A stretch of DNA of 64,000 nucleotides from an uncultured Elusimicrobia bacterium (GTDB lineage Bacteria; Elusimicrobiota; Elusimicrobia; Elusimicrobiales; UBA9959), in NCBI GenBank assembly GCA_903917735.1, contig CAIXBR010000117.1, positions 1 to 64,000 on the forward strand, written 5' to 3'. Below are positions 7,722-18,130 of the stretch, piece by piece. Each line of letters opens with the position of its first letter. Position 1 is the stretch's first letter. Both the position numbers and the translations under genes were made by a program. The notes beneath the pieces are model-generated. The model searched no databases and was not told the DNA's origin. It saw only the letters and a list, made by a program, of their open reading frames with translations.

Positions 7722-9122
7722 CTACTTCAGGTTCCGCGCGAAATACTCGAAGGCTTTGGCAAAGGGCTCCGGCGGCGCGCTCAGCACACCTGCACCTACC
7801 TGGCCTACGCCGGCTTTCTTGTGCGCCACGCCGGTGTCGATGAACGGCAGGATACCGCTCTTCGCCACCTTAATAACGTCTATCCCGGTCGGCGTGCCCC
7901 GGAAGTTAAGGTACGGGATCTTGTAGATATTATTCTCGCCGATAGTAATCTCATACATCGCCAGCGTGTAGCTCACAGCGTCCGCCGCCGTACCGCCCAC
8001 GAACTGCACAATAGCCGGCGCCGCGGCAATAGCGAAACCGCCCAGGCTGTTAGTCTCGGTAATAGCCGAGTCACCTATATCCGGGTTCGCGTCAGCCTTG
8101 GTATAGCCCGGGAAATAAAGCGCGTCCGGCACCGGGGCCGGCCCTGTAAACCATTTCCCGCCCGTACCGGAAAGCTGCACGCCGAAATCCGTACCGTTCC
8201 TCGCCATCACCACCACCAGGCTGGAATCCTTCACCCCGCGCCCCGCGTCCAGCGAAGCCTTGGAAAGCGCCATCGACAGGTTCAGGAAGAAGTGGTCGTT
8301 GCCGTTTATAAATTCCAGCACATCCGCGGCGGTCTCCGGATCGCGCGCCGTCTTTATAACGGCGGGAGCTATAGCCCGGTAGAACAGTGAAGTGGCGGCG
8401 CGGTTGCGGTTGTGCACTTCGTCGCCCATGTGCAGAGCCTGCGCCACCATGGACTTAAGGTCCAGCCTGCCCAGGAGCTTAATAGCCGCCTTCAGCGTGG
8501 GGTAAAGCGTCTTCCCCATCCATTTAAGCCGCTCTATCACCTCCGGAGAATATGCGCCGTAGCGCAACACCTTGCCCAGTCCCTCGTTCTGCGTGGCGTA
8601 TGAATAGTTGCCGTCAGCCTCGTTCTTTACGATAAAGACCGGCATCGAGGCGGAAATTATACCGGCCATCGGCCCGACGCAGTTATGCTCGTGACAGGGG
8701 GAATATTTTATCTTACCCGAAGCGGCCAGCTTTTCCGCTTCTTTCGGGGCCTTAGCCATCCCTTCGTAGATAAGAGCGCCCATTACCGCGCCGCGCATGG
8801 GACCGCACATCCTGTCCCAGGTTATCGGCGGGCCGGCATGCAGAATAAGGTTCTTCTTCATACCGGGAATCACATCAAGCGCCACGCCCATGCCGACCAG
8901 CGCCGGCTTGGCCGCTAGTATTTTCGTGAGGGCCTTCTGATTGGCCTTATTTATGCGCGCTGATTTTTTACCGGCTTTCATGAATAGCCCCGTCTCGGAC
9001 GAGAGCGGCGGCTTGAACTGGACCTGCACGCTCCTGGTGCCGGTATCGTTAAGCCCCTGCCTGAAGGATTCCAGGCCGATATTCACTACTTTCAGTTCTG
9101 ATTCGAAAAGTTTCATGCTCAT
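7722..9122 (-). CDS. DUF1116 (YlbE/AllG-like) protein, putative carbamoyltransferase subunit
   Basis: Member of the DUF1116 family, whose E. coli member YlbE (AllG) works with FdrA (AllF) and YlbF (AllH) in oxamate carbamoyltransferase at the end of anaerobic allantoin breakdown. The 466 residues cover the whole family, with conserved blocks GPPITWDRMCGPMRGAV, SPCHEHNCVGPMAGIIS and the C-terminal GAGVLSAPPEPFAKAFEYF. Its ATG overlaps the fdrA stop by one base (TAATG) with GAGG upstream, so the two are translationally coupled. It is the last gene of the accessory operon. The family call is firm; the substrate here is inferred. Confidence 0.85.
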   Translation of the reverse strand: MSMKLFESELKVVNIGLESFRQGLNDTGTRSVQVQFKPPLSSETGLFMKAGKKSARINKANQKALTKILAAKPALVGMGVALDVIPGMKKNLILHAGPPITWDRMCGPMRGAVMGALIYEGMAKAPKEAEKLAASGKIKYSPCHEHNCVGPMAGIISASMPVFIVKNEADGNYSYATQNEGLGKVLRYGAYSPEVIERLKWMGKTLYPTLKAAIKLLGRLDLKSMVAQALHMGDEVHNRNRAATSLFYRAIAPAVIKTARDPETAADVLEFINGNDHFFLNLSMALSKASLDAGRGVKDSSLVVVMARNGTDFGVQLSGTGGKWFTGPAPVPDALYFPGYTKADANPDIGDSAITETNSLGGFAIAAAPAIVQFVGGTAADAVSYTLAMYEITIGENNIYKIPYLNFRGTPTGIDVIKVAKSGILPFIDTGVAHKKAGVGQVGAGVLSAPPEPFAKAFEYFARNLK

Positions 9123-10675
9123 TACCTCTTTTCCACAAGCCTGACTATCTCGCCGGCCAGCCGGCAGGCCCCGGCGTTGGACGGCATCACTATAACCCCG
9201 GCAGCCTCCAGGCCTTTAACTATTTTAAAGCGGGCCTGCGGGTCGGTCTCCGTTCCGGTCACGGAGGTCACTATGGACAATTCCCTGTTCTGGATGAAAG
9301 CTTCCACTATCGCCGGGAGGATATCTTCCAGCGGCTTAAGGTTGGCGCCGTAGCCCAGCACCAGGTCCAGCAGCAGCACTGAGACCTCGGGCTTCTTCGC
9401 CTCGGAAATTATCATTTTATTGCGCAGGGTGAAGTCTATCATCGGGTGCGGACGGCCGACGGTGAATTCGTCCTCTCCCAGATCGATCACGGCGTGGCCG
9501 TAAAGCTCCATAGAGTTCTTCAGCTTGAAGCGTTTGTCGAGCGGGGCGTTGGAGCGCACCTCCCCTATCAGCTCGGGCAGTATCAGCTGCGCCTCGCTGA
9601 CGAAAGTGCCGCCGGAGAAAAGGCCCCGCAGGCAGCGGCTCCTTCTCTTCTTCATGACCTCCTTCTTCGCCAGTTGCTCGGCCTTCAGGTTCATGTCGTA
9701 AACCATCTCCCGCGCCTTGCCCAGTTTCCAGCCCTTGCTCAGGCAGACGGTCTTGTAGCCGGCCTCTTCAAGGGTTTTAGCCGGATAAAAGTCCTCTTTG
9801 ATCTTTTCCTTTATCTCGCCGCCTAGGAAAACGGCCACCACCGGCTTGTCTATCTTCTTTATTTCCGCGGTTATCCTCTTAAGTATCGCCGGGTGGGGGG
9901 GCTTCGACACAAGGAGAATGACGCCGGTGCCGGGGTCGGCGGCGAGCATCCGCAGCGCCTGTATGAAGGTAAGAGCGCCGACCTCCAGTTTAACGTCGCG
10001 CCCGCCGGTCCCTATAGCCTGGGAAATACCGGCGCCCTCGTTGGAGATAAGCGTGGTCACTTCCTGCAGGCCGGTGCCGGAAGCGGCCACAACGCCGATA
10101 TTACCGCGCCGCACGGAATTTGCAAAAGCGATGGGCGCGCCGTTAATTATAGCTGTGCCGCAGTCCGGACCCATGACCAGTAGCCCTTTTTTTATGGCGG
10201 ACCGCTTCAACTCCACCTCGGTCTCCACCGGCACGTTGTCGGAGAATAGCATGACGTTCAGCCCCTTCTCAAGGCAGTCCGCGGCAAGGGCCCCGGCAAA
10301 GCGGCCCGCCACGGAGATGACGGCCAGGTTCGCCCCGTCCAGCATTTTGACGGCGTCGTCGAGACCCGCGGCTTTGCGGTCGGTCCCGGAGGATGGCTGC
10401 GCAGGTTTTTTATTAAGGAGCTCTTCAGCGGCGGCTAACGCGGCCTCGGCGGCTTCGGGCGTTTTCGCGCTGACGGCTATGGCCAGATCGCTGTCGCCGG
10501 CCTTTAGTATCTCCGGTGTCAGCAGGCCGGAGGCTTTTATGATCCCCTTGTTCTCTTTAGTGGCCATCACCACGGCCGAATCCATTACCCCCGCTACGGC
10601 GTTGAGTTTCTTCGCCACCTGCATTAGCGAGACGGAATCGAAATAAGCGCCTTTTTTTATCACGGTCTTTATCAT
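9122..10675 (-). CDS. fdrA: FdrA-like acyl-CoA synthetase-fold protein, putative carbamoyltransferase subunit
   Basis: A 517-residue FdrA-family protein related to the succinyl-CoA synthetase alpha fold. It has an N-terminal ACT-like region (to about 90), a linker, a Rossmann CoA-binding-like domain with GPDCGTAIING and AASGTGLQEVTTLISNEGAGISQAIGTGGRDV, and a second flavodoxin-like domain after about 380. E. coli FdrA (AllF) is a subunit of oxamate carbamoyltransferase, which transfers a carbamoyl group to phosphate. Here it sits between DUF2877 and DUF1116 genes, the same trio as in E. coli. No carbamate kinase gene (arcC/allK), the usual next step, occurs in the window. Confidence 0.87.
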   Translation of the reverse strand: MIKTVIKKGAYFDSVSLMQVAKKLNAVAGVMDSAVVMATKENKGIIKASGLLTPEILKAGDSDLAIAVSAKTPEAAEAALAAAEELLNKKPAQPSSGTDRKAAGLDDAVKMLDGANLAVISVAGRFAGALAADCLEKGLNVMLFSDNVPVETEVELKRSAIKKGLLVMGPDCGTAIINGAPIAFANSVRRGNIGVVAASGTGLQEVTTLISNEGAGISQAIGTGGRDVKLEVGALTFIQALRMLAADPGTGVILLVSKPPHPAILKRITAEIKKIDKPVVAVFLGGEIKEKIKEDFYPAKTLEEAGYKTVCLSKGWKLGKAREMVYDMNLKAEQLAKKEVMKKRRSRCLRGLFSGGTFVSEAQLILPELIGEVRSNAPLDKRFKLKNSMELYGHAVIDLGEDEFTVGRPHPMIDFTLRNKMIISEAKKPEVSVLLLDLVLGYGANLKPLEDILPAIVEAFIQNRELSIVTSVTGTETDPQARFKIVKGLEAAGVIVMPSNAGACRLAGEIVRLVEKR

Positions 10676-10692
10676 AGCTATATCCTCTTTAA

Positions 10693-11523
10693 CTACTTTA
10701 AGCCTTTAAGTTCCTCAAGCAGCGCAAAAGCCAGGCCCGCGCAGAAATCCGCTCCGGAAGTGTGCCCGCTTTCCAGCGCCGCTTTCGCCGCCGCCGCCAG
10801 TTCCATGCGGTCGCGCCGCCCCAGGGCCAGCATAAGGCGGCGCACCTTGGCGTTCACCTTGCCTTCATAAGAAGCGCGGAGGAAGGAGTTGGAAATAAGA
10901 TTATTGCCCTCGGAGTTAAGGAATACCAGTTCCATCTTCATAGTGGTCGCGAAACGCAGATTCACCTGTGAAAAGCGGTAGCCGGCAAGCAGGCCGCACA
11001 GGAAGTCGTCGCCTGACGGGGTGAGCCCCATGCCGAGCCCGCGCATGATCTTTGTGCCGCGCGCGTAATTGCCGGCCCTGAAATACCCCACGCCTTTTTT
11101 GAAGCGCGCCAGCATATGCCTGTCAAAAATGCGGGAGAAATCCTTTTCCAGTTCCGGGTCGAAAATAAAAGCCAGACTTTTAGGCGGCGCCAGGCGCGCG
11201 AGCTGCCGGGTGAATGCCAGGACGTTGCCCAGCACCGTTTCAGGCTCCGGCCCGGAAAGCAACGGCACGCTGGAGGAATAAAGCGCCTCCGGGTCCTTGC
11301 GCAAGCGGTTCTCGTCTATGTAGAAATAGAACCGCGAAGAACGAAGGCGCTTGGCGCCCGGCGGCAGCTGCTTCAGTACCAAGTTAAGCGGCCCGGCGCC
11401 GGTACGAGGGGGGACCAGCGAAACTATCAGTTTCCCTTTGCGGAAGTTTATGGCGTTGGCGAAAGCCGAGTGCAGGCGGTAATCGCCCTCGGGAATGCTG
11501 TCGCCGTAAGAGATTAAATCCAT
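10693..11523 (-). CDS. DUF2877 (YlbF/AllH-like) protein
   Basis: A 276-residue DUF2877 protein, the third partner of FdrA and YlbE in the oxamate carbamoyltransferase set. The signature GLTPSGDDFLCGLLAGYRF lies near residues 167-185, followed by the C-terminal SGADFCAGLAFALLEEL. There is no clear ribosome-binding site: the bases before the ATG are an arm of inverted-repeat element E3, suggesting that the element was inserted next to the start or that translation depends on the upstream gene. The next gene, fdrA, starts 17 bases downstream. Confidence 0.82.
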   Translation of the reverse strand: MDLISYGDSIPEGDYRLHSAFANAINFRKGKLIVSLVPPRTGAGPLNLVLKQLPPGAKRLRSSRFYFYIDENRLRKDPEALYSSSVPLLSGPEPETVLGNVLAFTRQLARLAPPKSLAFIFDPELEKDFSRIFDRHMLARFKKGVGYFRAGNYARGTKIMRGLGMGLTPSGDDFLCGLLAGYRFSQVNLRFATTMKMELVFLNSEGNNLISNSFLRASYEGKVNAKVRRLMLALGRRDRMELAAAAKAALESGHTSGADFCAGLAFALLEELKGLK

Positions 11524-11536
11524 ATTTTCACACTGC

Positions 11537-11709
11537 GTTCGGAGGTGACCGGGTTATAAAACCTTCATGCGTGGAGCGCAGCGACACTTCCCCGTGCGAG
11601 ACTTACGTAAGCGCCCGAGGCCGATTGGTGAACGAGGCCACGGTGGAATGGCCGCGTGGAGCGCAAACAACACTTTCTTGCGCGTTTTACGGTCCGGTCA
11701 CCTCCGAAC
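11537..11709. repeat. Inverted-repeat element E3 inside the accessory operon
   Basis: A 173-base element bounded by a perfect 16-base inverted repeat (11537-11552 with 11694-11709). Inside, GCGTGGAGCGCA occurs twice as a direct repeat (11569-11580 and 11654-11665), and 11602-11624 resembles the centre of E1 (41-62). It fills the whole gap between the carbon-nitrogen hydrolase stop and the DUF2877 start. It has the shape of a MITE-like insertion; an RNA role in differential expression of the two halves of the operon is also possible. Confidence 0.65.
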
Positions 11710-11712
11710 CCC

Positions 11713-12474
11713 TTACTGCCAGGGGAACTCTTTGCGCTCGGCAAGGAACGGAAAGCGCTCGCGGGTCTTGGCCACCAGGTCCCTGTCGAGCGGAGTTTCG
11801 GTTATAAATATGCCTTCCGTTGTGCCGGAGTCCAGTACAATTTTGCCGAGAGGGTCGAAGCACATGGAATTGCCCGAGTATTCCACCTTGCCCTCCATTC
11901 CTACGCGGTCCACTCCGACACAGTAAGCCTGATTTTCAACGGCCCGGGCGCGCAGCAGCGTCATCCACTGCTCGGCGCGGCGCATGGGCCAGGCGGCTAT
12001 GACCAGGTACAAGTCGACGCCGGGGGCCTTGTTCCAGAACAGGTAGGGGAAGCGCAGGTCGAAGCAGACGGCCGGCATCACGCGCAGCCCCTCCATACCG
12101 AAGAGCTCCTGCTTAGTGCCGGCCTTGTAATACTTGTCCTCCTGACCGAAGGCATAGAGGTGTATCTTCGAATAAGTGTTGATCCTGTTGCCGCGCCGGT
12201 CGACGGTTATAAGGTTGTTGTAGCCTTTCTCCACGCCACCGTAAGAGATATTGATGTTGTGCTCGGCGGCGAGACCGGAGAAAAAGGCCCTGTCCGAGTC
12301 GTCCAGCTCAGCGACCGCCGTATTCATGGTAAACCCGGAAAGCGTCATCTCCGAGAAGATCAGCCAGTCTATCTCGCTCTTGCGGGGATAGTTCTCAAGC
12401 AGATCCTCTATCTTGCTCTTGTTGGCTTCCTTGTCTTCCCATTTGATGTCGTACTGGCAGAGCGCGATCTTCAT
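11713..12474 (-). CDS. Carbon-nitrogen hydrolase, omega-amidase-like
   Basis: A nitrilase-superfamily amidase of 253 residues. The Glu-Lys-Cys triad is visible: E42 in FSEMTLSGF, K103 in YSKIHLYAF and C137 in AVCFDLRFPYLF. The CFDLRFP signature and length point to the YafV/Nit2-type omega-amidase branch, which hydrolyses small omega-amides of 2-oxo acids. It is co-directional with the Mo-hydroxylase subunit gene ten bases upstream and with the DUF2877-FdrA-DUF1116 genes after element E3. I infer that it releases ammonia or a carbamoyl-bearing acid from the ring-opened product; the true substrate is unknown. Confidence 0.88.
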   Translation of the reverse strand: MKIALCQYDIKWEDKEANKSKIEDLLENYPRKSEIDWLIFSEMTLSGFTMNTAVAELDDSDRAFFSGLAAEHNINISYGGVEKGYNNLITVDRRGNRINTYSKIHLYAFGQEDKYYKAGTKQELFGMEGLRVMPAVCFDLRFPYLFWNKAPGVDLYLVIAAWPMRRAEQWMTLLRARAVENQAYCVGVDRVGMEGKVEYSGNSMCFDPLGKIVLDSGTTEGIFITETPLDRDLVAKTRERFPFLAERKEFPWQ

Positions 12475-12484
12475 TTTGTTTTCC

Positions 12485-14887
12485 TCAATGCTTTTTTTGA
12501 GCTTTAACCGCCAGGGCCACTTTTTCTTTGGTGACCGGCATGGACTTTATGCGCACGCCCAAAGCGTCTTCCACCGCGTTGGCGATCAGCGGCGCGCACG
12601 GGATCATGGTGTGCTCGCCCACGCCGCGGGCGCCGAACGGGCCGTCGGGCTGCGCGACCTCGATGATGATCGGCACCACCACGTCGGGCATGTCCATCAC
12701 TGTAGGGATCTTATAGTCCGAGAAGTTGGGATTCAGCAGACGACCCTTCTCGTTATAGCGCATGTCCTCGTAAAGCACGGTAGCGAAGCCCTGCAGCAGG
12801 CCGCCCACTATCTGGCCTCTTACTAGGTCCGGGTTGATGGCCTTGCCGCAGTCCACGGCCAGCGCCACTTTCTTTATCTTCATCTTGCCGGTCTCGCGGT
12901 CCACTTCCAGGATGATGCCGGCCGAGCCCGTGGTGTAGTGCACGTTGGGGTGTCCGCCCTGGCCGGTCTCCGGGTCGCTGATGGCCGAGGCGAACTCGGG
13001 CATAAAAACGCCGGACCCCATTATCGGCCCGCCCTTAAAGGTATGGTCGTCGGCCTGGATGCCGTTGATGACGAAGTCGCTGAAGCGCAGCGCGAAGTCC
13101 GGCTTGGTGCGGCACTTCACGTGCTGGTCCTCGAGGTAAAGGGTGCTCTTATCCAGACAGTGCACGCGCTGCACCAGGTCCAGGATGCGCTCGCGAGCCT
13201 CGAGCGCGGCGCGCTTAACCGCGTTGCCGCAGCCCCAGGTCACGTGTGACCCTACTGTCTGCCACTCGTACGGGTTGCGGTCGGTGTCGGGGGTCTCAAC
13301 GCGGATCTTGCTGACCGGCACGGAAAGCACTTCGGAAGCTATCTGCGCCATCACCGTAAGCAGGCCCTGACCTATCTCCATACCCGAGACCAGGATATTG
13401 ATGCTGCCGTCCTCGTTGAACTTGAGGAAGGCGCTGGAGCTGGCGTTGGGCGGCATGGCGGGGGACTTCCAGAAACAGACCTGGGCCTTGCCGATGGCCT
13501 TTTTCGGATCCTTGGACTTTTCCTTCACGCCCCACTTTATTTCCTTCGCTACGCGGTCGATGGCGTCCCTGATGCCGGTGGGGTTCATGTGCGCGCCGTA
13601 GGGCAGGGTATCGCCCTCTTTAATAGCGTTCTTTCTGCGGAACTCAACGGGATCTATCCCCAACTCTTGCGCCATCCGGGTGATGTGGGACTCCAGGCCG
13701 AACAGGAACTCGGAATAGCCGAAACCGCGGTAGGCGCCGCAGGGCGGCAGGTTGGTATAGGTGCACATCGAATCAATGCTGAGGTTGTCCACCTTGTAGG
13801 GGCCGCTGGCCGACAGGCCGGCCGCGTTCACCACGTTGGCGCCGTATTCCACGTAAGCGCCCGAGTCCCAATGCAGCTTGAAGTCCAGCGCGGTGATCTT
13901 GCCGGCCTTCGAAACGCCCATTTTAATTTTTGCGGTGCAGCCCAGGCGCTGATAGGTGTTGTAGAACTCCTGCGCGCGGCTCCACAGCAGCTTCACCGGC
14001 CGGCCGGGCACGGCGATGGCGAGGGCCGCCGCGATGATCTCCATCGTGACGCCTGCCTTGCCGCCGAAACCGCCGCCGATGTAGGTGCTGATAACGCGCA
14101 CATCCTTGTGGCTCAAGCCGAAGGATTTAAGCGTTTCCGCGAACACGTGACGCTGCGTGAAGGGGGACTGCGACGAGGTCCACATCGTCAGCCGGCCGGA
14201 GGCGTCGTAGAGGCCGATGGCCGAGTGCGGCTCTATGGCGCAATGCGCGTAGCGCGGCACGGTGTAGGTATCCTCCATTACGAGGTCGGCGTCCCTGAAG
14301 CCCTTGGCCAGGTCGCCCTTGCGGATCTTACGCCAGTGGGCTATGTTGGTGCCCGGCTTGGGAAAGAACCAGGGTACGTGCGTGTAGCTTTTCAGATCGG
14401 GATGGACCAGCGGGGAATCTTTTTCCAGCGCCTTTACCGCGTCCATTACCGCCGGGAGTTCTTCATATTCGACCTTAACCAGCCCGGCGCCGCGCAGGGC
14501 TATCTTCGGATCGGTGGCCACCACGGCCGCCACCTGCTCGCCGATGAAGCGGACGGTATCCGTGGCGAAGACGTAGCGGTCGTTCATGTACAGGCCGAAC
14601 TTCTGCGTAAAGTTGCGGCCCGTAACCACTTTCACCACGCCGTGCAGCTTCTCCGCCTTCGTGATGTCTATGGCCTTTATCCTGGCGTGCGCAAAAGGAC
14701 TTTCCACCAGCGCCGCGTAGAGCAGGCCCGGGCCGAACTCAAGGTCGTCGGTATACTTGGCCGCGCCCTTGATCTTCTCCCAGCCGTCCACTCGCAGCAC
14801 GGACTTGCCGACCACTTCCAGCGTTTCGCCGGCTTTAGCGGACTTCACGCCCTTCTTCGGTTTGGTTATAAGTTTCTGAAGGTCCAT
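12485..14887 (-). CDS. Molybdenum hydroxylase large (Mo-pterin-binding) subunit
   Basis: An 800-residue subunit of the xanthine dehydrogenase / CO dehydrogenase family that hydroxylates an N-heterocycle or aldehyde at a Mo-MCD cofactor. Visible motifs are GGGFGGK (cofactor contact), GAYRGFGY, GMEIGQGLLTVMAQIASEVL and the C-terminal GARGVGEHT with the catalytic glutamate. The FAD and 2Fe-2S subunits are encoded upstream in the same operon, separated by two lipoprotein genes. GAGGTGACTT immediately before the ATG supports the start. Motifs do not fix the substrate; purine, nicotinate or another azaheterocycle are possible. No molybdenum-cofactor insertion chaperone is nearby. Confidence 0.93.
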   Translation of the reverse strand: MDLQKLITKPKKGVKSAKAGETLEVVGKSVLRVDGWEKIKGAAKYTDDLEFGPGLLYAALVESPFAHARIKAIDITKAEKLHGVVKVVTGRNFTQKFGLYMNDRYVFATDTVRFIGEQVAAVVATDPKIALRGAGLVKVEYEELPAVMDAVKALEKDSPLVHPDLKSYTHVPWFFPKPGTNIAHWRKIRKGDLAKGFRDADLVMEDTYTVPRYAHCAIEPHSAIGLYDASGRLTMWTSSQSPFTQRHVFAETLKSFGLSHKDVRVISTYIGGGFGGKAGVTMEIIAAALAIAVPGRPVKLLWSRAQEFYNTYQRLGCTAKIKMGVSKAGKITALDFKLHWDSGAYVEYGANVVNAAGLSASGPYKVDNLSIDSMCTYTNLPPCGAYRGFGYSEFLFGLESHITRMAQELGIDPVEFRRKNAIKEGDTLPYGAHMNPTGIRDAIDRVAKEIKWGVKEKSKDPKKAIGKAQVCFWKSPAMPPNASSSAFLKFNEDGSINILVSGMEIGQGLLTVMAQIASEVLSVPVSKIRVETPDTDRNPYEWQTVGSHVTWGCGNAVKRAALEARERILDLVQRVHCLDKSTLYLEDQHVKCRTKPDFALRFSDFVINGIQADDHTFKGGPIMGSGVFMPEFASAISDPETGQGGHPNVHYTTGSAGIILEVDRETGKMKIKKVALAVDCGKAINPDLVRGQIVGGLLQGFATVLYEDMRYNEKGRLLNPNFSDYKIPTVMDMPDVVVPIIIEVAQPDGPFGARGVGEHTMIPCAPLIANAVEDALGVRIKSMPVTKEKVALAVKAQKKH

Positions 14888-14909
14888 AAGTCACCTCTCG
14901 ATTTTACGC

Positions 14910-15326
14910 CTACTTCCGGCCGTTGTCCGGCTGCGCGGCTGAGCAGTCGGCCATGTTGAAACGCACCGGGGACGCCACCTTGCGCGAGCCCTCGCCGAAT
15001 ATCCCGGACTGCGCGCACTGGCCGGGACCCGTAGGGAGAGCTTCGATAGTAACTGTATCCAGGACCATCCGGCCCGGCTCGCCGCGCCACAGCCTGCGCA
15101 CGGGCACGCTCACCGGGGCATAACCCGCCGAAGAGCCGTTGACCTGTATCCTGGCCCCGGACGGCGCGGTGATCACATCCACCGTCTCGTCAACATAATT
15201 CCGGGATTGAGGCTGAGATTCTGCGGACCGCTTCTTTATAAGGCCGCCGCCCGGCTTAATACCGGCCTGCGGCATGGCGCAGCCGCAAAGAATTAACACA
15301 GCCGCCAGAATAAATATGTTTTTCAT
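14910..15326 (-). CDS. Small lipoprotein with PEGA-like segment
   Basis: A 138-residue predicted lipoprotein: the signal MKNIFILAAVLILCGC ends in a lipobox (L-C-G-C, Cys16). A PEGA-like beta segment, DVITAPSGARIQVNGSSAGYAPVSVPVRR, follows at about 50-80, then a region with two cysteines. PEGA repeats are extracytoplasmic beta modules of unclear binding role. It lies between the 2Fe-2S and Mo-binding subunit genes, 22 bases before the latter, which is unusual because the hydroxylase itself is cytoplasmic. Function unknown. Confidence 0.75.
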   Translation of the reverse strand: MKNIFILAAVLILCGCAMPQAGIKPGGGLIKKRSAESQPQSRNYVDETVDVITAPSGARIQVNGSSAGYAPVSVPVRRLWRGEPGRMVLDTVTIEALPTGPGQCAQSGIFGEGSRKVASPVRFNMADCSAAQPDNGRK

Positions 15327-15341
15327 AAAAAAACAACCCCT

Positions 15342-15698
15342 TTACCCGGCGAACTGCATTCCCGCCACATAGACGCCGTCGTCCTTCAGAACCTTAAGCA
15401 GGGCGGCCACCTGGGGGTCGCCGGGCTGATAGGTATCGTTGTCTATTCCAATAGTCCTAACCCCCTTGTCCGTAGCCCATTTAAGGCCTTCCGCCAAACC
15501 TAGGGGTTCATTCTTCCCTACCAGCCTGACCGCCACTTCCGAAGCCTTCAGCTCGGAATTCTGCGACTGCAGCGCAGTTATAAGCGACTGTGCCCTGGCT
15601 TTACTTGTGGCGATGACCACAGCCTTCGGCTGATTAATGAACCAGCAGCCGGAAAAAGAAACAGCGGCCGCTACTATCAGGAATATTTTATTCATCAT
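15342..15698 (-). CDS. Small predicted lipoprotein, unknown function
   Basis: A 118-residue protein with the signal MMNKIFLIVAAAVSFSGC and a lipobox at F-S-G-C (Cys18). The mature part reads like an alpha/beta fold (AVVIATSKARAQSLITALQSQ ... GVRTIGIDNDTYQPGDPQVAALLKVLKDDGVYVAG), a little like one lobe of a periplasmic-binding or Toprim-like domain, but too short to assign. Fifteen bases separate it from the PEGA lipoprotein and 22 from the 2Fe-2S subunit, so all are probably co-transcribed. No family recognised. Confidence 0.7.
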   Translation of the reverse strand: MMNKIFLIVAAAVSFSGCWFINQPKAVVIATSKARAQSLITALQSQNSELKASEVAVRLVGKNEPLGLAEGLKWATDKGVRTIGIDNDTYQPGDPQVAALLKVLKDDGVYVAGMQFAG

Positions 15699-15720
15699 TC
15701 GTCCTTAGCCTCGTCCGGCT

Positions 15721-16188
15721 TCATTTACCTTTAACCGTTTCCTCTATCGCCGCCACTATCGGCTCGTAGCCTGTGCAGCGGCAGAGGTTGCCGGCAATGG
15801 CTTCCTTGATGTCGTGCGCGGTGGGCTTGGAATTTTTCTCGAGCAGTTCGGTGGCGGAAAGTATAATTCCCGGCGCGCAGAAGCCGCACTGAAAGGCGTT
15901 CTTCTCATGGAACTTTTTCTGGAGCTTCTGCGTCCATTTGCGGCTGTTGGCCCCTTCGAGCGTGACCAGGTCGGCGCCGTCGGCCTCCACGGCCAGCGCC
16001 AGGCAGGAGCGCATGGTCTTCCCGTTCATCAATATGGTGCAGGTGCCGCAGTCGCCGCGGTCACAGCCCACCTTGGGGCTCTTAATGCCCAGCCTGCCGC
16101 GCAGCACGTCCAACAGCACGTCGCTGGGCTCGACTTCCAGGGCCACTTTCTCGCCGTTAAGACTGAATTCTATGTTATGTTTCTTCAT
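15721..16188 (-). CDS. Molybdenum hydroxylase 2Fe-2S subunit
   Basis: A 155-residue iron-sulfur subunit of the xanthine dehydrogenase / CoxS family that passes electrons from the Mo centre to FAD. The plant-ferredoxin-type cluster motif GCDRGDCGTCTILMNG and the C-terminal two-cysteine-pair motif QCGFCAPG ... GNLCRCTGY are both intact. It lies nine bases after the FAD subunit and is followed by the two lipoprotein genes rather than directly by the large subunit. Confidence 0.95.
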   Translation of the reverse strand: MKKHNIEFSLNGEKVALEVEPSDVLLDVLRGRLGIKSPKVGCDRGDCGTCTILMNGKTMRSCLALAVEADGADLVTLEGANSRKWTQKLQKKFHEKNAFQCGFCAPGIILSATELLEKNSKPTAHDIKEAIAGNLCRCTGYEPIVAAIEETVKGK

Positions 16189-16197
16189 GTATCCGCC

Positions 16198-17091
16198 TTA
16201 AACTATATTTTCCGTGCCGTACTTAGGGCCTTTGCCGAAAAGCCTGGAGACGGCTATTTCAAGCGCGCGCTCCAGCATTATCTGCGTCATATGCAGGCGG
16301 TACTCTTTTGAGGAGCGGATATCGCTGATGGGGAACACTTCCTGCAGGATAGCTTCTTTGGCCCTTGCCAGAACCTTCTCGCCCAGCTTGCTGCCGTTAA
16401 GCGCCGCCTCGGTCCCGGGACAGCGGGAGGGTTTAGGCCCCAGCGCGCAGACGGCCACGCGGTAAGTATTGTCGGAGAAGGCCAGCACGGCCACACCGCC
16501 CTGGGCCAGGTCCTCGCCGTCGTAGCGGGAAAGCTTCATATAGCAGCCGGCGTTTTTCCTGGAAGGGACCTTAAGCTCCACGGCGGTCACGATCTCCTCC
16601 GGCAGCAGAGCTGTTTTCTTTGGTCCGGTGAACCAGCCGCCTATGGGGATGCGGCGCTCGCCCTTTATGCCGCGGACTATAACCTCGGCTTCGTAGACGG
16701 CCAGCGCCGGCGCGGAGTCTGCCGACGGCACGGCGGAACAGATATTGCCGGCCACGGTGGCGCGGTTGCGCACCCCGACCGAGGCCACGGTAAGCGAGGC
16801 CTCCCAGAGCAGGGGAAACTTATTCTTTACTACGGGGGAAGCGATCAGGTCCGAGAACGTCACCAGCGCGCCCAGGCGCAGAGTGTCGCCTTTCATCTCG
16901 AAGACGGCGAGCTCCTCCAGGGCTTTCAGATCCACCACAACTTCGGGGCGGGCCAGGTTCTCCTTCAGGTGCACAACAAGGTCCGTGCCGCCCGCCAGCG
17001 CCCGGGCCTTCTCTCGGTAAAACGAAAAGACATGGAGGGCTTCGTCCATGTCTTTAGGTTTAACGTACTCGAATTCGGCGGTTATCGGCAT
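16198..17091 (-). CDS. Molybdenum hydroxylase FAD-binding subunit
   Basis: A 297-residue CoxM/XdhB-family subunit that accepts electrons on FAD. The N-terminal FAD-binding region shows ALAGGTDLVVHLKE and VGVRNRATVAGNICSAVPSADSAPAL, followed by the CO-dehydrogenase flavoprotein C-terminal domain (IRSSKEYRLHMTQIMLERAL). GGAGG six bases before the ATG sets the start. It is preceded by the cyclase gene and a stable intercistronic hairpin at 17110-17155. Confidence 0.94.
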   Translation of the reverse strand: MPITAEFEYVKPKDMDEALHVFSFYREKARALAGGTDLVVHLKENLARPEVVVDLKALEELAVFEMKGDTLRLGALVTFSDLIASPVVKNKFPLLWEASLTVASVGVRNRATVAGNICSAVPSADSAPALAVYEAEVIVRGIKGERRIPIGGWFTGPKKTALLPEEIVTAVELKVPSRKNAGCYMKLSRYDGEDLAQGGVAVLAFSDNTYRVAVCALGPKPSRCPGTEAALNGSKLGEKVLARAKEAILQEVFPISDIRSSKEYRLHMTQIMLERALEIAVSRLFGKGPKYGTENIV

Positions 17092-17109
17092 AATTTTCCT
17101 CCCGGAATT

Positions 17110-17155
17110 GGCCGGGGGCTGAGAGGCCGGTCCACGGCTCCCAGCCCCCGCGGCC
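17110..17155 (-). promoter_or_regulatory. Intercistronic hairpin between cyclase and FAD-subunit genes
   Basis: GGCCGGGGGCTG (17110-17121) pairs with 17142-17155 through a single bulged base, enclosing a 20-base loop. There is no T tract, so it is more likely an RNA stability or processing element than a terminator. It would separate the expression of the cyclase gene from that of the hydroxylase subunits. Confidence 0.45.
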
Positions 17156-17158
17156 GGA

Positions 17159-17974
17159 CTAAGCGGTCCAGGCCACCACGCGGCCCATGGCCGACTCGAG
17201 CTCCATGCCCTTGAGGGGGAAGAAGCCCAGCCAGCAGCGCTTGTTGGAAAGCTTGTCTATCTCACCGCCGATGTTCTCGGCGTGCACCAGGCGCTTGGGG
17301 AACAGCTTGAGGTGCATGACCTGGTAGTAGGTCTCCTGGGGGAACAGTTCGTCCCATTTCTTACCGTAGTTCTCAATGAGCTTGTTCTCGGCTTCCACGA
17401 AAAGCTTGGGATGCCAGTTGCGTATGATAGTGTTCATCGGGTGGTCGGCAGAGCCGCAGTCCACGCCTATCCACTTGAACTTCATGTCCAAAGCCCACTT
17501 ATGGAAGCGGGGCCCCGGGCCGGGATGCTTGCAGAAATAGCGCACCTCGTCGCAGACGTTCTTTTCATACCAGGCGTATTTGTGATAGCCGGTATTTATG
17601 ATCAAGATGTCGCCCTTGCGGATATCGGCGCGCTTCATCAGCAGTTCGGGTTCGTACAGGTCGTAGTCGCCGACATCTTTGGAGATGTCCACTACGACAG
17701 CGTTGCCGATCCATTCCTTCATGGGCACCTCGCCTATAGTGCGGCCGGCGCTGTAAAAATGGATCTCGCCGTCCATATGCGTCCCGACATGGTTGGAGGT
17801 GGTCATTATCTGGCCGTTGGCGCCCTGGCCCATATGGGCGCCGGCTATGCGCTTGAAATATTGCAGCCCGAGCGGCATATAGCTGGGCCACGGGGGAGTG
17901 TGGATGCTCAGCGGCTGGGTAAGGTCGTACATTTTGGCCTTCTCCATGAACTTCATAAAGTCGTTGGGTTTCAT
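17159..17974 (-). CDS. Cyclase-family metal-dependent hydrolase (kynurenine formamidase-like fold)
   Basis: A 271-residue member of the cyclase family, whose members include kynurenine formamidase and isatin hydrolase and open amide bonds in rings or formamides using a divalent metal. The metal motif HVGTHMDGEIHF (62-73) fits HxGTHxDxxxHF. A second conserved block is KWIGVDCGSADHP. ATG at 17974 has GGAGG eight bases upstream; the earlier ATG at 17989 overlaps that site and is unlikely to be used. First gene of the catabolic operon, consistent with opening a ring hydroxylated by the downstream Mo enzyme; the substrate is unknown. Confidence 0.85.
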   Translation of the reverse strand: MKPNDFMKFMEKAKMYDLTQPLSIHTPPWPSYMPLGLQYFKRIAGAHMGQGANGQIMTTSNHVGTHMDGEIHFYSAGRTIGEVPMKEWIGNAVVVDISKDVGDYDLYEPELLMKRADIRKGDILIINTGYHKYAWYEKNVCDEVRYFCKHPGPGPRFHKWALDMKFKWIGVDCGSADHPMNTIIRNWHPKLFVEAENKLIENYGKKWDELFPQETYYQVMHLKLFPKRLVHAENIGGEIDKLSNKRCWLGFFPLKGMELESAMGRVVAWTA

Positions 17975-18130
17975 GCGGGGAACCTCCATTGGAAGTAGGA
18001 ACTAGCTACTCTAAAATTCTAACAAATGCGGGGGGGTAAATAAAGTGAAAGATAAACAGTGAAAGATAAAGGTCAGGGATGAGCGGCAAAGTGAAAATCC
18101 GACCCTGGCTTAACCCGTTAAGGGCTTTGT
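17975..18130. other. Non-coding stretch upstream of the catabolic operon
   Basis: AT-rich by the standards of the window. On the minus strand a TAGAAT -10-like hexamer at about 18018-18023 could serve the catabolic operon, but no good -35 accompanies it. A 13-base direct repeat, AGTGAAAGATAAA, occurs at 18044-18056 and 18058-18070 (14-base period), a possible operator. No gene is seen. Confidence 0.4.

Follow-up and report, generated by a model that had tools for sequence, protein, structure and literature searches.

The window analysed here, 64,000 nucleotides of contig CAIXBR010000117.1 within the 3.59 Mb assembly of an uncultured bacterium of the order Elusimicrobiales (Elusimicrobiota), carries an operon in which genes for a heterotrimeric molybdenum (Mo) hydroxylase and a cyclase-family hydrolase are joined to those for a CN hydrolase and an AllFGH-type transcarbamoylase. 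As judged from sequence, a route for N-heterocycle degradation with carbamoyl phosphate as the energy product is well supported, because the gene linkage is conserved, the large subunits of the hydroxylase form a clade of their own, the active sites are intact and carbamate kinase is widespread among the genomes with the operon. The proposal is that the operon degrades a cyclic ureide without oxygen and conserves energy in doing so, with uracil or a closely related pyrimidine as the most likely substrate; the chances of this reading being correct were regarded as about even.

Gene content and linkage of the operon

The operon was located at positions 7722-17989 on the minus strand. All of its genes are co-directional and intact, and in the order of transcription the features are as follows.

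17159..17989, minus strand: cyclase-family (PF04199) metal-dependent hydrolase, the proposed ring opener with a putative barbiturase-like activity (Pfam, motif and fold)
16198..17091, minus strand: Mo-hydroxylase flavin adenine dinucleotide (FAD) subunit (Pfam FAD_binding_5 and CO_deh_flav_C)
15721..16188, minus strand: Mo-hydroxylase 2x[2Fe-2S] subunit (Pfam Fer2 and Fer2_2; eight Cys)
15342..15698, minus strand: small predicted lipoprotein of 118 aa, without Pfam match
14910..15326, minus strand: small predicted lipoprotein of 138 aa, without Pfam match
12485..14887, minus strand: Mo-hydroxylase large (molybdopterin) subunit, a proposed uracil-type hydroxylase (Ald_Xan_dh_C and MoCoBD_1/2; GARGxGEH)
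11713..12474, minus strand: CN hydrolase, proposed amidase for the decarbamoylated monoamide (CN_hydrolase; nearest to the omega-amidase YafV-type model PRK10438, below cut-off)
11537..11709, minus strand: repeat element with 26-nt inverted arms, between the CN hydrolase and AllH genes (sequence repeat)
10693..11523, minus strand: AllH (DUF2877) subunit of the AllFGH-type transcarbamoylase (Pfam AllH, PF11392)
9122..10675, minus strand: AllF (FdrA) subunit of the same enzyme (FdrA model NF004760, over cut-off)
7722..9122, minus strand: AllG (DUF1116) subunit of the same enzyme (Pfam AllG, PF06545)

The original prediction, made from the sequence of the window, had described a co-directional run of a cyclase, three Mo-hydroxylase subunits, an omega-amidase-like hydrolase and the DUF2877-FdrA-DUF1116 set. 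All of these genes were found, but the two lipoprotein reading frames and the repeat element between the CN hydrolase and AllH genes had been missed. Intergenic spacing was from -1 to 67 nt, with the exception of 189 nt between the CN hydrolase and AllH genes.

Conservation of the linkage was studied at 80 loci with AllG relatives, obtained by an AllG search of genome contigs. Mo-hydroxylase subunits were encoded near AllG at 65 of these loci, a cyclase at 62 and both at 57; outside Elusimicrobiota both were present at 34 of 43 loci. The association recurs in 13 named phyla and in two gene orders, AllH-AllF-AllG-cyclase-FAD-FeS-large subunit being the common one and cyclase-FAD-FeS-large subunit-CN hydrolase-AllH-AllF-AllG that of Elusimicrobiales. 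Because of this recurrence across phyla, the association is far beyond chance. Most of the incomplete loci stop at a contig edge, and in nine genomes where the Mo genes do not adjoin AllG, an orthologue with 65-73% identity was found elsewhere in seven. AllG itself was present in 69 of 341 Elusimicrobiota genomes. The operon is a widespread module and not a local accident of one genome. The outline of an N-heterocycle route ending in carbamoyl phosphate, given in the original prediction, is well supported by the linkage and by the clade, active sites and carbamate kinase described below; the description of the route as stand-alone had to be given up.

The operon is flanked by proS-ispG-rseP-dxr upstream and rimP-nusA-infB downstream. 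No recurring functional partner was seen among the other flanking genes, which include a histidine kinase, a TPR protein, methyltransferases and ABC-2 exporters. A promoter scan gave sites only slightly above those in shuffled sequences, and a terminator scan gave fewer sites than the shuffles. The lipoprotein pair (14910-15698) between the FeS and Mo subunits was seen only in Elusimicrobiota relatives, in some of which the site is occupied by similar or other small genes. Two more copies of the repeat element, longer than 100 bases, and eight short matches are present elsewhere in the genome, resembling what is expected of a small mobile or repeat element, and the element is outside the proposed mechanism. 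At three loci from other Elusimicrobiota families (L084, L085 and L086), the AllF and AllG genes lie on either side of a phosphoribosyltransferase-like gene and no Mo-hydroxylase is encoded close by, which is apparently a different AllFGH context.

Properties of the encoded enzymes

The two Mo-cofactor domains, the catalytic Glu and the accompanying FAD and 2x[2Fe-2S] subunits place the hydroxylase in the xanthine-oxidase family. All NCBIfam models for the Mo enzyme were below cut-off. In a tree sampled via AllG, in which several reference branches are long and unlinked orthologues are under-represented because of the sampling, all 54 AllFGH-linked large subunits fell into one clade (Shimodaira-Hasegawa-like approximate likelihood-ratio test support, 99). 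This clade is separate from CO dehydrogenase (CoxL), aldehyde oxidoreductase, 4-hydroxybenzoyl-CoA reductase and E. coli XdhA and XdhD, and also from QorL (quinoline) and the 6-hydroxypseudooxynicotine enzymes. The catalytic Glu in GARGxGEH was kept in 54/54 linked large subunits, and the Arg of the YRGFG motif, at the position of Arg880, was invariant among them. At the position of Glu802 in xanthine dehydrogenase, Ala was present in every one of the 54; the residue numbers follow bovine xanthine oxidoreductase, the alignment being made without the bovine sequence. Xanthine dehydrogenase proper was ruled out by the tree and by this Ala, and CO dehydrogenase (CoxL, with its AYRCSFR loop) and aldehyde oxidoreductase were ruled out by the tree together with the active site. 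Clustering with CO dehydrogenases or aldehyde oxidoreductases, along with a neighbourhood that is not conserved, had been named in advance as the outcome under which the pathway idea fails. Neither occurred, since the linkage is conserved and the large subunits lie in a separate clade. The FeS subunit keeps the eight Cys of two 2Fe-2S sites, and the FAD subunit keeps the AGGTDL and TVAGN motifs.

The ring opener belongs to PF04199 and not to PF09663, the family of the known barbiturase. The protein shows unusually high conservation: its metal motif is intact (HVGTHMDGEIHF), and HxGTHxDxxxHF was invariant in 25 cyclase sequences from several phyla, 66-87% identical to the window protein. The closest matches to the cyclase model were kynurenine formamidase and isatin hydrolase, the latter among the closest whole-length folds; with a mean predicted local distance difference test score of 74, this is a statement at the level of the fold only. 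AtzD/Bar-type enzymes (PF09663) were found in 0 of 26 operon genomes in a search whose positive control worked. In three stretches examined from haloarchaeal and Rhodococcus plasmids, relatives of the cyclase (36-45% identity) did not adjoin genes for AllFGH or a Mo-hydroxylase. The CN hydrolase keeps its Glu, Lys and Cys motifs.

AllF, AllG and AllH are encoded together, as in the AllFGH family. The correspondence to the E. coli proteins given in the original prediction was right at the level of families, but the relationship is distant, with identities of 40% for AllF, 44% for AllG and 35% for part of AllH. AllG of the operon belongs to a separate clade (support 100/99), at a large distance from its E. 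coli counterpart. From oxalurate and phosphate, AllFGH of E. coli forms oxamate and carbamoyl phosphate (PMC11326118), and an account of AllFGH in nitrifiers has oxalurate as the assumed substrate (PMC12625717). Because of the distance between the enzymes, oxalurate cannot simply be carried over to the operon; an acylurea would be expected. Neither the operon nor the clusters that were inspected contain ureidoglycolate dehydrogenase or allantoin genes, no genome-wide search being made. On two conjugative plasmids, from Aminobacter and Citrobacter freundii (L213 and L214), AllF, AllG, DUF2877 and carbamate kinase genes are found next to the gene of a cyanuric acid hydrolase of the AtzD type, and could there form a route that conserves energy from cyanurate. 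On a Peptoclostridium plasmid, AllFGH relatives and carbamate kinase adjoin a biuret-amidohydrolase-like protein. The AllFGH family is thus not limited to oxalurate contexts, and the AtzD plasmids make the opening of a cyclic ureide followed by transcarbamoylation a recurring scheme.

The absence of carbamate kinase noted in the original prediction is true of the window and not of the genome. A divergent carbamate kinase of 366 aa (244 bits, below the strict cut-off of 358) is encoded outside the window, near a YgeW gene. Carbamate kinase was matched in 24 of the 25 other genomes with the operon, above the strict cut-off in 18, compared to 2 of 14 controls; several of the matches that fell short of it are of the divergent type seen in the source genome. 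In a Bacteroidota genome (L219), the carbamate kinase gene follows that of the Mo-hydroxylase large subunit after 13 bases.

Two loci elsewhere in the source genome were also noted. At L196 (1839-6242), a YgeW-type knotted carbamoyltransferase, carbamate kinase and a threonine-synthase-like pyridoxal phosphate enzyme are encoded together, suggesting a second carbamoyl-phosphate-yielding route of the uric-acid type. A second Mo-hydroxylase large subunit, at L200, groups with E. coli XdhD and may belong to a reductive pathway for uric acid.

Proposed pathway and alternative substrates

The substrates and the order of steps that we infer are as follows. The Mo-hydroxylase would oxidise an sp2 C-H of uracil with oxygen from water, giving barbiturate. 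Enzymes of the xanthine-oxidase family attack sp2 C-H bonds and do not normally act on an sp3 carbon such as C5 of hydantoin, and C6 of uracil is therefore better suited. The cyclase-family hydrolase would open barbiturate to ureidomalonate, replacing the unrelated AtzD/Bar-type barbiturase. The AllFGH-like complex would use phosphate to split ureidomalonate into malonamate and carbamoyl phosphate, after which malonamate would be hydrolysed to malonate and ammonia by the omega-amidase-like CN hydrolase or, in other loci, by an amidase-signature enzyme or perhaps an isochorismatase. Carbamate kinase, encoded elsewhere, would finally convert carbamoyl phosphate into ATP. An acylurea is obtained by ring opening of barbiturate or parabanate, not of plain hydantoin or dihydrouracil. 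The original statement that the substrate is probably not simply allantoin can in this way be narrowed to a cyclic ureide opening to an acylurea, most likely uracil via barbiturate. Oxidative pyrimidine degradation is known to proceed through both barbiturate and ureidomalonate (PMC3758960).

NCS2 permease genes accompany the cluster in Cloacimonadota (L154, L159 and L160) and Acidobacteriota (L153). The two linked permeases scanned were of uracil type, with 358-362 bits for uracil permease or 389 for RutG against 213-221 for xanthine permease, and one linked permease matched UraA structures at 1e-73, compared with 1e-17 for a purine permease. An unlinked permease in the source genome is 71% identical to the linked Acidobacteriota protein. 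Among relatives, the presence of a nucleobase permease did not clearly separate genomes that have the operon from those that lack it. Beside the cluster, amide hydrolases with unrelated folds occur repeatedly (CN hydrolase, amidase and, in three loci, isochorismatase), as expected if the product of the transcarbamoylase is a monoamide.

Several observations weigh against the uracil reading. The permease linkage is confined to four loci in two lineages, and a match to the Acidobacteriota permease was present in 11 of 25 operon genomes and absent from 14, so uracil uptake would not be universal. A linked type III CoA-transferase was nearest to CoA:oxalate CoA-transferase, although below cut-off, which would suit an oxalate product. 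The thin permease linkage and this CoA-transferase are the reasons for rating the uracil reading no higher than even. In some members the Mo genes are missing beside AllFGH and the cyclase, and the Mo step may therefore be less essential than drawn. A trio of thiolase, OB-fold/zinc-ribbon protein and GNAT-fold protein adjoins the cluster in about ten loci (L151, L157, L172 and others), the c6 neighbour protein having the GNAT fold; the trio points to CoA chemistry and is hard to fit into the proposed pathway. The clusters gave no malonate-specific enzyme, a genome-wide search not being made.

A different N-heterocycle could be the substrate, for instance a product of purine breakdown, a pyrimidine carrying N-methyl or amino groups, a pyridine or an isatin-like ring, with another acylurea or ureido acid serving AllFGH, or the Mo enzyme could work reductively. 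This is rather unlikely, even though the plasmid relatives of AllFGH beside cyanurate or biuret enzymes indicate a broad family, and the reduction of uric acid by E. coli XdhD (PMC12507026) is a precedent for the reductive direction. Xanthine dehydrogenase proper is made unlikely by the separate clade and by Ala in place of Glu802, the source genome seems to have a uric-acid-type set apart from the operon (YgeW and the Mo subunit near XdhD), and the permease type also speaks against this reading.

A weaker alternative, and an improbable one, is a five-membered ureide related to hydantoin, oxidised to parabanate by the Mo enzyme, opened to oxalurate by the cyclase, split into oxamate and carbamoyl phosphate by AllFGH and completed to oxalate and ammonia by the amidase. 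It would agree with the oxalurate activity of E. coli AllFGH, with the resemblance of parabanate to isatin, which is the substrate of the enzymes nearest to the cyclase in whole-length fold, and with the CoA-transferase. Oxalyl-CoA decarboxylase, however, was above cut-off in 0 of 26 operon genomes and without any match in three of the four searched genomes with the linked CoA-transferase, which weakens the oxalate ending; an oxalate end product via oxalyl-CoA was rejected for this reason. The permeases that accompany the cluster are of the uracil type, C5 of hydantoin, an sp3 carbon, is not a normal site of oxidation for the family, and the AllG clade is far from E. coli AllG. Functional separation of the two halves, merely sharing a transcription unit, could be read from the deviating Elusimicrobiales gene order and the 189-nt gap with its repeat element, but is strongly disfavoured and very improbable given linkage across 13 named phyla in two orders and the retained Mo orthologue in seven of nine genomes without adjacency.

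Relation to known systems and implications

The operon shares with the anaerobic allantoin pathway of E. coli (AllFGH and AllK) the three subunit families, the expected carbamoyl phosphate and a carbamate kinase in the genome. It differs in having a Mo-hydroxylase and a cyclase instead of allantoinase and ureidoglycolate dehydrogenase, and in its separate AllG clade. Oxidative pyrimidine degradation by uracil/thymine dehydrogenase, barbiturase and ureidomalonase would have barbiturate, ureidomalonate and the product malonate in common with the proposed route, whereas the ring opener here is of the cyclase family and not AtzD/Bar, carbamoyl phosphate would be formed instead of urea, and many phyla are involved. 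The reductive uric acid cluster of E. coli (ygeW-ygeX-xdhD-ygfK-ssnA) similarly combines a xanthine dehydrogenase-family enzyme, a carbamoyltransferase and a carbamate-kinase-like gene, but with a large subunit of a different clade and a YgeW-type transcarbamoylase in place of AllFGH. The Citrobacter and Aminobacter AtzD plasmid clusters resemble the operon in their ring-opening hydrolase, AllFGH-like proteins and carbamate kinase, and that of Citrobacter also in a nucleobase permease; they differ in the lack of a Mo-hydroxylase in the stretches seen, an unrelated ring opener, an AllG outside the clade and a xanthine-type permease.

A literature search gave no description of a module of Mo-hydroxylase, cyclase and AllFGH, most subscription papers and all preprints being beyond its reach. 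The operon could represent a previously undescribed anaerobic oxidative pyrimidine pathway in about a dozen phyla, composed of a clade of Mo-type uracil hydroxylases, a cyclase-family barbiturase and an AllFGH-type ureidomalonate transcarbamoylase; this is put forward tentatively, at a little under even chances. If true, genes would be available for a poorly known oxidative pyrimidine route under anaerobic conditions, with a second barbiturase unrelated to the known one. AllFGH-type enzymes would phosphorolyse acylureas other than oxalurate, and the energy of the ureide bond would be saved as carbamoyl phosphate and not lost as urea. For annotation, a cyclase together with AllFGH and this Mo clade should be treated as one pathway, not as "xanthine dehydrogenase" plus "acyl-CoA synthetase FdrA". 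Such a pathway would explain how many uncultured anaerobes may draw both nitrogen and ATP from nucleobases.

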